NCBI GenBank assembly: GCA_001800135.1
Contig: MGUU01000010.1
Location: 51,696-115,695 of the forward strand
DNA from: Elusimicrobia bacterium RIFCSPLOWO2_02_FULL_39_32
GTDB lineage: Bacteria; Elusimicrobiota; Elusimicrobia; 2-02-FULL-39-32
DNA length: 64,000 nt
Direction: 5' to 3'
Below the pieces are notes generated by a model. It had not been told where the DNA came from, did not search any database, and worked only from the letters and a program-made list of their open reading frames with translations. Below are positions 5,434 to 53,813 of this stretch, piece by piece (the stretch's first letter is position 1; each line of letters begins with the position of its first letter). The translations under genes were made by a program, and so were the position numbers.

Positions 5434-5527
5434 TAAAAAAATAAGGTAGAAATATTCAAAACAATCTTTAAAGCGCGATAAAACTAAAATTTTTTTATTT
5501 TAAAAATAGGATTTTTTAGAGAGAAAA

Positions 5528-5539
5528 TGTAACGTTACA
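5528..5539. promoter_or_regulatory. Perfect 12-bp palindrome, candidate operator
   Basis: TGTAACGTTACA is a perfect inverted repeat lying in the divergent region between pcm (minus) and the giant gene (plus), about 95 nt upstream of the pcm extended -10. Flanking TTTGTCACAAA also shows dyad symmetry. The form suits a dimeric repressor or activator, but the regulator is unknown. Confidence 0.4.
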
Positions 5540-5610
5540 AAATTTGTCACAAAAAGTTTACAAAAAGTTAGAGAAAAGTTTCGCGCACTTCATTTATAAG
5601 CTAGCTTGAA

Positions 5611-52800: not shown

Positions 52801-53392
52801 TAATCAAAAAAAGAATGTCATTTAAACGGCTTAAATCCAGCTCTACTTTTTCTAATTTTCTTAAAGCTTCTTCCCTGCGAACTTTGTATTTGGAAATTCC
52901 AGCAGCTTCTTCAAAAAGTTCGCGTCTTTCTTCTGCCTTGGCGTTAATCACAAAATCTACTTCGCCTTGAGCTAAGATGGAGTAGCCTTCCCCAATGCCT
53001 GTATCTAAGAAAAGGTCTCGGATGTCTTTTAAGCGGCATTGAGTTTGATTAAGGAAATATTCAGATTCTCCGCTGCGAAAGAGCTTGCGGGTTACTTCTA
53101 CTTCTGTAAAGTCAATTGGCAAAAGATGGTGGGTATTGTCAAAGGTCAGAGTTACTTCTGCTAAATTCATAGGGGCTTTTCCAGTAGATCCGGCAAAGAC
53201 TACATCCAGCATCTGTTTAGAACGCAGGGATTTAGCGGACATTTCTCCTAAACACCAGCGGAAAGCATCCACAATATTGGATTTGCCGCAACCATTTGGC
53301 CCTACAACAGCTGTGATCCCTTCTTTAAAGTCGATCACAGTCTTATTTGCGAACGATTTAAAGCCGACCATTTCTATTGTTTTTAATTGCAT
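49868..53392 (-). CDS. smc: Chromosome segregation protein SMC
   Basis: This is the 1174-residue condensin ATPase. The Walker A GPNGCGKS is at 31-38 (after LKTIEMVGFKSFANKTVIDF); long coiled coils flank a hinge around 520-660 (FPGLKGVVGLLLKVS ... LRGNTLYDRALIDGG); the ABC signature LLSGGEKT is near 1070 and Walker B/D-loop ICILDEVDAPLD near 1100. Length and architecture are normal. scpA/scpB are not in the window. A good promoter is directly upstream (53441-53469), with two foldback elements beyond it. It is probably the first gene of the smc-phosphoesterase-ompA-rib run. Confidence 0.98.
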   Translation of the reverse strand: MQLKTIEMVGFKSFANKTVIDFKEGITAVVGPNGCGKSNIVDAFRWCLGEMSAKSLRSKQMLDVVFAGSTGKAPMNLAEVTLTFDNTHHLLPIDFTEVEVTRKLFRSGESEYFLNQTQCRLKDIRDLFLDTGIGEGYSILAQGEVDFVINAKAEERRELFEEAAGISKYKVRREEALRKLEKVELDLSRLNDILFLIKEQMDSLEAAAKKAQNFQKIKEELKNKEVSFILNQCQTLEQEILSKQNKSDEFRKEIEQTTTNSDLAEAEWTQNRLIQDGIEKELYDNNSTILKLDKEMYSADQQLKNSLEREQELLQKEKKLEEQIQQNQNELSHVQEKLKTSETELNEFESKESLLKESFLIEKNQWQSKEDERKKLESSKKEILEMLFQLNMETTELKNELNKLSSLSSHKELEVLSNQKELDKCSTEETKLSSELKEAENAVKILTSKEEELFQEQASLEKNFNLLQTEQEKEQELYQTLEKKIIQLEAQSKILTETFLNHPYKKGTEAILKKGFPGLKGVVGLLLKVSKNSAQWIEALLGNKLNFLVFERLEDAEAALNWIKENRMGRACCFILEKIPTINLPHLQSLPNANSLLQFVQCDPELNPLKNYLLGSAFLRGNTLYDRALIDGGSDSILSEAESQESIPSHSSSLSQNQFKLKEDLNQESVQLKLEIETSGKRCQELEGSLKKSREDLNQKGLALEKSRLEKKHFQEIFDSKNEQWKLLSRELEWLKEQIQSNQNAAHETKEKINVIEEKINKGNLVLKDHEQKRMELDCSIEAKKEEEHSFQLKSKEAEIRLENFLENLTKKKEVFQGWRAHFEEYQKNIETAKLEIKEGQSQLKNCQLRQKESSQKVIELEAEKEKISSGAENLLNKKREMEESNLKIQESLHALRETHKTLSELLHQIELNLRTLEAEKNNHLNRLQETYALNFEQAKENFSLQETISVEEVDRLKKKVESLSNSVNLEAPEQYKNLQDRFSFLNTQIQDLLKAKEDLRGAIFEINRTTKDQFKQTYLKVRENFQEVYSQLFVGGVADLLLTDESNILESGVEIVAQPAGKKLQNIALLSGGEKTLTAIALLFAFFMVKPSPICILDEVDAPLDPANVTRYLNLVNHFSDKTQFMAVTHNPKTMEAADILYGVTMEESGISKILSVKLQKQPSQTKAELTPA

Positions 53393-53440
53393 CTTTTACC
53401 TTCCTTTTATGAATAGTGGCATTCTTTTACCATTGAGTAA

Positions 53441-53469
53441 AACATACCGAAAAAGTGCGCTTTTGTCAA
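53441..53469 (-). promoter_or_regulatory. Promoter of smc
   Basis: On the minus strand TTGACA (53469-53464) and TATGTT (53446-53441) are separated by 17 nt, 49 nt upstream of the smc ATG. The -35 is perfect and the -10 matches 4 of 6. The promoter lies about 30 nt from the end of the large foldback, so the structure could influence it. Confidence 0.7.
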
Positions 53470-53500
53470 GGGGGGTGAGAGAGAATTTTTTTAAAGCTTT

Positions 53501-53674
53501 GGTTAAACCGAGATTATGCATTAGGAAATGGAATTCTACGAAAAATATGGGTCATCTTTCGTCACAAAAAAGTTCGACCGTACCCATAAGTACGCTCTCA
53601 CTTTTTTGCGCCGAAATCTGACCCATCTTTTTCGTCTCGGTTCTCATTTCCTAATGCATAAGCTCGGTTAAACC
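53501..53674. repeat. 174-bp near-complete palindromic (foldback) element, MITE-like
   Basis: The two halves are inverted copies of each other. The outer 30-nt arms (53501-53530 and 53645-53674) match at 28 of 30 positions, including an unbroken TTATGCATTAGGAAATG/CATTTCCTAATGCATAA. A second pair (53538-53554 and 53619-53635) matches at 16 of 17, a third (53557-53573 and 53600-53616) at 15 of 17, and the centre is CGTAC-6 nt-GTACG. The whole would fold into a single hairpin of about 80 bp with two small internal bubbles. There is no coding potential. The likely class is a MITE or other foldback repeat; a structured RNA or cruciform regulatory site upstream of smc is the alternative. No target-site duplication is obvious. 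Confidence 0.85.
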
Positions 53675-53731
53675 CGTATTTTGCAATAGGACGTTGGATT
53701 CGACGACACGCAAGATTGCAAAATACAGGTT
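53671..53731. repeat. Second foldback element, adjoining and related to the first
   Basis: AACCCGTATTTTGCAAT (53671-53687) is inverted as ATTGCAAAATACAGGTT (53715-53731), 16 of 17 matching, around a 27-nt loop. It overlaps the outer end of the first foldback by 4 nt. Its left arm and loop (53683-53706) match the left arm of the first element (53518-53541) at 18 of 24 positions without gaps, so the two seem to be members of one repeat family. Confidence 0.75.
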
Positions 53732-53813
53732 AAGAGTTTTTTCCCGCATAAATAGACCAAATAAGACGCTTCCCATGATCTTTTATTGTCATAGAATAGG
53801 TTTTGGGGGACAT

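Follow-up and report, generated by a model that had tools for sequence, protein, structure and literature searches.

A palindrome of 160 bp lying upstream of smc in the window (the whole 64,000-nucleotide stretch of DNA analysed here) belongs to a family of small foldback elements scattered among genomes of the Elusimicrobiota. We observed that the element recurs, that a congener has empty sites, that direct repeats flank its ends more often than chance allows, that its length is nearly constant and that its arms change together. Taken as a whole, these copies probably represent a gene-less foldback family with AT-rich direct repeats of 4-6 bp, likely moved in trans and likely needing one folded strand.

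Results

A first-pass annotation of the window had described a near-complete palindrome of 174 bp without a coding frame. The palindrome is real, as its outer 30-nt arms (53501-53530 and 53645-53674) are 93% complementary and its centre (53579-53594, CGTAC-CCATAA-GTACG) contains the 6-nt loop previously placed between CGTAC and GTACG, but the mobile unit comprises only the inner 160 bp with the ends CC..GG, and the TTAAA on both sides is target sequence (Table 1). The RNA fold of positions 53480-53700 had an energy of -88.8 kcal/mol compared to a mean of -42.9 for shuffled sequences (z = -9.9; reached by 0 of 200 shuffles), and folding of positions 53490-53750 with DNA parameters gave z = -11.8. 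The element occupies a non-coding gap between two divergent genes, smc and a ComEA-like gene (both named by eye), at a distance of 115 bp from the smc start codon. The statement on coding frames needs one amendment: the list of open reading frames holds no protein gene in the element except a 178-aa frame antisense to smc (53085-53621, plus strand, TTG start), which reaches into the element and which we take for chance.

Table 1. Parts of the foldback element upstream of smc and of the hairpin abutting it (positions in the window).
Feature	Position	Strand	Basis
Left target copy, TTAAA	53503..53507		Empty site in relative (L038) is TTAAG; direct-repeat analysis
Full-length foldback element, 160 bp, minus strand probably under selection to fold	53508..53667	-	Fold; covariance-model match 1-160; mismatches; consensus energy
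Outer internal loop, first side, GA on minus strand, faces 53637-53638	53535..53536	-	Alignment A2; mismatch columns
Outer internal loop, second side, GA on minus strand	53637..53638	-	Alignment A2; mismatch columns
Inner internal loop, first side, GA on minus strand, faces 53598-53599	53574..53575	-	Alignment A2; mismatch columns
Inner internal loop, second side, GA on minus strand	53598..53599	-	Alignment A2; mismatch columns
Apical loop, 6 nt	53584..53589		Sequence; fold
TTAAA common to both abutting hairpins	53668..53672		Sequence
Second copy, internally deleted (putative), 57 bp	53673..53729		Comparison with L060; weak minus-strand model match, E = 0.0094
Right target copy of the hairpin pair, TTAAG, matches empty site	53730..53734		Comparison with L038

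To judge from its sequence, the 57-bp foldback next to the element looks like an internally deleted member of a subfamily that is seen whole as L060. Base 53537, beside the outer loop, differs in the window copy from a G that is nearly invariant in the family, which fits the expectation for a drifting copy. Another palindrome, shorter and imperfect, is found at 5512-5555 of the window, with the centre TGTAACGTTACA. An Rfam scan of the window returned one tRNA elsewhere and nothing else; matched against the element itself, five hairpin families all stayed below threshold, the best being MIR8562 (E = 1.2e-6; 42.4 bits, with 211 required).

The site upstream of smc was compared with that of a close relative, a congeneric Elusimicrobia groundwater metagenome-assembled genome (JACPBF010000001.1) whose Smc is 95% identical. 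Its gap upstream of smc (L038) aligns with the window save for point differences and the absence of both hairpins, leaving a single TTAAG. Given this close relative without the insertion, a conserved role of the element at smc appears unlikely, and the smc setting looks incidental. Joined flanks of further copies were then searched reciprocally between the own genome (G000) and genome G001. Clean empty sites were found for 4 of 11 copies of G000 (L012, L013, L019, L026) and for 4 of 12 copies of G001 (L054, L056, L058, L060); the remaining 15 of the 23 tests were left uncounted because the relative had a partial site, none at all, remnants or some other sequence (L008, L011, L016, L027 and L050 are examples), L061 among them, which looks like an empty site but has CTAAG. 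The flank alignments of the eight clean sites overlap by 4-5 bp in six cases, and by 6-7 bp at L056 and L026, the tip itself matching the flank. The two target copies of L019, L054 and L056 are alike and each one base off the empty site, while those of L013 are unlike each other (TAGA, TAAA). One copy of G001 (C19:57303) interrupts a long gene, leaving one frame of 968 codons and another exceeding 3,300, and the G000 counterpart has a single frame across the site. In the stretch around this very long split gene (L198, G001:C19:47301-67300) the second frame is open for its more than 3,300 codons to the stretch end.

To the right of the L058 copy (G001:C18 near 604500) the flank carries a direct repeat of TTTGTAA type that matches more than 10 other places in G000; it has the look of a regulator box, of which the Pho box is an example.

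Among 46 distinct copies, picked by tips and size, 38 carried exact direct repeats of 4 bp or longer at the element ends and 26 carried repeats of 5 bp or longer, whereas pairing left flanks with the right flanks of other copies (1000 shuffles) gave means of 20.3 and 7.4 and maxima of 27 and 13, respectively; eight copies had no exact 4-bp repeat. The repeats were mostly TTAAA or TTTAA, with CTAG, CTAA, TATGA, TATTC, TATTTA, TTCAA and TTTTAA as others, and this variety indicates that the flanking TTAA belongs to the target rather than to the element. The length of the target repeats ranges between 4 and 6 bp, a spread that fits a single enzyme poorly. The ends of the family are CC..GG, of the TTAAACCCG..CGGGTTAA type, and the terminal inverted repeats matched at 16-20 of 20 positions in scanned copies, the scan having selected for tips.

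The search for further copies by sequence and by covariance model, proposed in the first-pass annotation, recovered the family both in the own genome and across the phylum. At E up to 10, and with 40 of 69 candidates scored, G000 (2.52 Mb, 27 contigs) yielded at least 59 matches. Several of these hit the two strands of a single place, and many are short tips. Full or nearly full copies were seen in the window and at C13:64187, C2:14318 and C16:107862, the other places seen being halves, deleted forms or tips. Searched by DNA, the family was found in 9 of 60 relatives. A covariance model built from 31 copies (alignment A2) matched at least 16 of 340 genomes of the phylum under strict filters, corresponding to at least 11 of 191 good genomes and at least 15 of 100 genera (8 candidates scored per genome); the carriers belong to families f1, f3, f6, f13, f23, f24 and f25. 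Genome G003 had no DNA match, yet the model matched one place there, on both strands. Phages and plasmids that were searched gave no match; among viral contigs, 17 stretches shared one 16-mer and none of these matched the model at E up to 1, and a second pattern gave 0 matches.

Length was 157-163 bp in 45 of the 46 analysed copies, a set from which L057 (188 bp, with an internal duplication) and L051 were excluded. Longer members occur in G036 (196 bp), G013 (193-235 bp) and G001 (188 and 203 bp); those of G013 (L218-L221) lie within one genome and their direct repeats are less clear. The tip pattern occurred at 45 places in G001 and 19 in G000, and the reversed pattern once in each. Tips were paired at element-like spacing (up to ~190 bp) at 22 of the 45 places in G001 and 4 of the 19 in G000, solo tips being common, above all in G000. 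Three of these, at C5:70588, C10:184045 and C10:239943 of G000 (L254, L255, L256), consist of TTAAACCCGAAACTTGCATTAGAAAATG or nearly so and are partnerless; in L254 and L256 the final ATG of the tip starts an alanine-dehydrogenase-like and a PheT-like gene (by eye). A different interior, CAGGATGTGCGCAGCTCATGACAAC, stands between the same kinds of tips in L020, L021 and L023 (G000) and L059 (G001), and the stretch ahead of it in L021 and L059 could encode MKIAKRCIIF.IF.LQDVRSS. Most copies lie outside genes, and copies other than that of the window adjoin genes other than smc.

In alignment A2, 93.7% of cells pair and both sides have changed in 24 of 41 pairs. The covariation score was 0.443 compared to 0.157 for shuffled and 0.050-0.152 for slid controls; such scores are inflated by related copies, and counts within one cluster are not independent. 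Covariation extends to interior pairs (helices 2, 3 and 5). Between near copies (at least 93% alike, 33 pairs) 94 changes were one-sided and 27 two-sided, between copies 88-93% alike (18 pairs) 81 and 56, and between copies 80-88% alike (42 pairs) 266 and 256. Individual copies thus drift, but pairing persists in those lineages from which further copies descend.

Mismatches distinguish the two strands. On the printed strand (window plus), positions outside the loops held 56 A.C and 8 G.T mismatches, which are 56 G.U and 8 A.C on the minus strand (32 copies, one dropped for length). A second count, of 45 copies in 18 clusters, took every state a single time in each cluster and omitted column pairs covered by fewer than 10 copies as well as 12 that were open in over half of the copies. 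Here the ratio of G.U to A.C on the minus strand was 14:0 among cluster-shared states and 41:7 among single states, and G.A and A.G were also frequent (20 and 22). Singleton substitutions on this strand, taken from 7 clusters with at least three copies, were C>T 23, G>A 16, T>C 13 and A>G 12, i.e. 35 towards G.U versus 29 towards A.C, a bias too mild to explain the G.U excess by mutation. The minus-strand fold was the more stable one in 42 of 46 copies, and three copies that stood in reverse in this comparison probably account for three of the four exceptions; the minus-strand consensus of 45 copies folded at -47.2 kcal/mol versus -26.5, with 38 of 47 pairs doubly changed. Two persistently open loops place 5'-GA-3' opposite 5'-GA-3' on the minus strand (tandem G.A). 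The higher covariance-model score of the printed strand is a product of model construction and carries no evidence. The G.U-biased mismatches and the tandem G.A loops, both read from aligned sequences, suggest that selection acts on a single folded strand, whether as RNA or as single-stranded DNA, and the folded minus strand would then be the working form.

These data bear on the interpretations first offered for the palindrome. Copies, empty sites and direct repeats argue for the proposed non-autonomous foldback mobile element. The suggestion of a structured RNA holds in so far as covariation points to a structured strand, which could be RNA or single-stranded DNA. Neither a unique locus nor unrelated sequence in relatives combined with a lack of copies, both put forward as arguments against a mobile family, describes what was found: copies exist elsewhere and the relative has the same flanks minus the element. 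Mobility and conservation by compensatory change had been set up as alternatives, and both hold: insertions at individual sites are gained and lost, yet pairing is maintained across the family.

A mobilising enzyme was sought in the genomes and between the tips. Across 12 genomes, PF13701 (IS1380-type) and PF13546 (IS701 / DDE_5) were each found in none, PF01797 (Y1_Tnp) in six but not in G000, G001, G002, G004, G005 or G008, and PF01609 in six, with one gene each in G000 and G001. Reverse transcriptase (PF00078) was present in 7 of 16 carriers and absent from 9, including G000, G004, G326 and G327, some of these assemblies being incomplete. Two PF01609 genes were rejected as mobilisers: L128 has a decayed tip upstream but no matching right end was seen, and in L129 no matching pair of ends was seen. 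The former (G001:C39:114338) is an IS1634-like transposase gene (by eye) downstream of the decayed tip TTAAACCCGGATTTTGC. L136-L140 entered automatic tip scans only. Long elements bounded by tips were sought by a pattern search of six genomes and by a scan of 273 sequences (1.7 Mb, overlaps included); four pairs of tips emerged at spacings of 2.8-4.9 kb, and the frames inside three of the four included no transposase (by eye). No transposon with like ends was thus found in the five families, the tip search or the scan of 1.7 Mb of sequence. Movement would most likely depend on a transposase acting in trans, one that is perhaps lost or carried on elements outside these assemblies.

Orientation and target choice were examined as well. 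A preference for one replication strand was rejected as a general rule, as only 25 of 40 copies lie on the G-rich side, although 14 of 18 do so in G000 and G001 together. By gene strand, 22 of 40 copies share an orientation; among the 46 copies, both neighbouring genes run with the minus-type strand in 14 cases and against it in 9. Targeting of stop codons was likewise rejected: a facing stop is found no further than 1 nt away in 7 of 40 copies, which is no clear excess given that 9.6% of non-coding TTAAA/TTTAA sites hold a stop (stretches of G000, G001, G326 and G324).

Discussion

In the mechanism that we favour, a staggered-cut transposase encoded elsewhere would recognise the CC..GG ends, and selection would preserve, in source copies, a folded minus strand that bears two tandem G.A loops and consists of either single-stranded DNA or RNA. 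Other copies would drift and be truncated or deleted, and the smc site would be an incidental non-coding landing place. Counting against this mechanism are the failure to find a transposase with matching ends, the 15 of 23 tested copies that gave no clean empty site, the eight copies that lack an exact 4-bp repeat, the uneven length of the target repeats and the existence of longer members. A bolder version, which we regard as possible but doubtful, has a hairpin transposon travelling in the form of a single folded strand (the minus strand here, be it RNA or single-stranded DNA) that is read over its whole 160 nt via the two G.A loops and yet inserts with the target duplication of a staggered cut, a combination unlike MITEs, REP/RAYT systems or attC.

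The ends, direct repeats and empty sites would also fit an ordinary MITE, whose DDE transposase needs only the terminal inverted repeats and whose palindrome is inherited with an interior of no role, and the mainly one-sided differences between near copies (94 versus 27) resemble drifting DNA. Such a model of DNA ends, however, predicts neither covariation of interior pairs nor a length held at 157-163 bp in all but one of 46 copies, nor loops open at fixed places, nor strand-biased mismatches; these features count against it, and we consider it unlikely. One-strand, G.U-tolerant pairing and tandem G.A loops could also mark a structured RNA gene copied via RNA in the manner of a SINE-like retroelement, which is improbable given the lack of reverse transcriptase in 9 of the 16 carriers, incomplete assemblies among them. 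A REP-type hairpin that a Y1 (RAYT) transposase mobilises while one replication strand is single-stranded DNA would explain a strand-specific hairpin with open loops and the bias towards the G-rich side in G000 and G001, but six genomes including these two are devoid of Y1_Tnp, the overall distributions by GC skew and gene strand show little of that bias, and the element ends carry direct repeats, which RAYT-type insertion is not known to leave; this explanation is very improbable. Least credible of all is a role in regulation, or as a cruciform, for smc or its divergent ComEA-like neighbour. The non-coding gap between divergent genes and the very stable fold would suit such a role, whereas the element is absent from the congener with 95% identical Smc and its other copies stand beside other genes; the congener's empty site contradicts a conserved smc element, as it does the idea that all relatives share these insertions site for site.

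Several known systems share features with the family. Integron attC sites are strand-specific folded hairpins with conserved unpaired bases and fixed core sites at both ends, whereas the flanks of the Elusimicrobiota element vary (TTAAA, CTAG, TATGA and others). Elements of IS1380, piggyBac and IS701 type use TTAA- or YTAR-like targets, some with CC-type ends, and resemble the element in these respects, but PF13701 and PF13546 are absent from the 12 genomes. REP/RAYT systems depend on a Y1 transposase, and the own genome is without a PF01797 match.

Closer in size are the ERIC/IRU, RUP and Correia/NEMIS elements, described as gene-less sequences of ~100-200 bp with inverted repeats and target duplications whose transcripts are predicted to form long stem-loops (PMC2229807). 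As far as this source covers them, they have mostly 5'-TA-3' termini, as opposed to CC..GG with 4-6-bp targets, RUP has an insertion sequence with like ends (IS630-Spn1), for which no counterpart was found here, and no comparable conserved strand-specific fold is reported for them (PMC2229807). Rickettsia palindromic elements (RPEs), at ~105-150 bp, are likewise palindromic and spread over the genome, but are often located in frame within genes according to the sections consulted (PMC2229807, PMC10969869), whereas the Elusimicrobiota copies are mostly outside genes and one checked insertion in a long gene breaks the frame. Some RPEs are CGTC-tagged, and the GTAG- and CGTC-tagged REPs are portrayed in the same source as intergenic hairpins, 20-40 bp long and tagged on one side by unpaired bases, the CGTC type having no known transposase (PMC3733652); the present element, by contrast, has 160 bp and is paired to its tips. 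A literature search found no description of a 160-bp foldback family from Elusimicrobiota.

The family is thus one of MITE-like foldback elements scattered through a phylum and unusual in its full-length, strand-specific fold. Accounts of bacterial MITEs usually regard them as a pair of ends with mere filler in between. Here, a near-constant length and the full fold are held across several families of one phylum as the sequence turns over, and a model of structure detects the element where DNA similarity failed, as in G003. Together with the strand-specific mismatches, these features make it testable whether a small mobile element may depend on a folded strand and yet duplicate its target.
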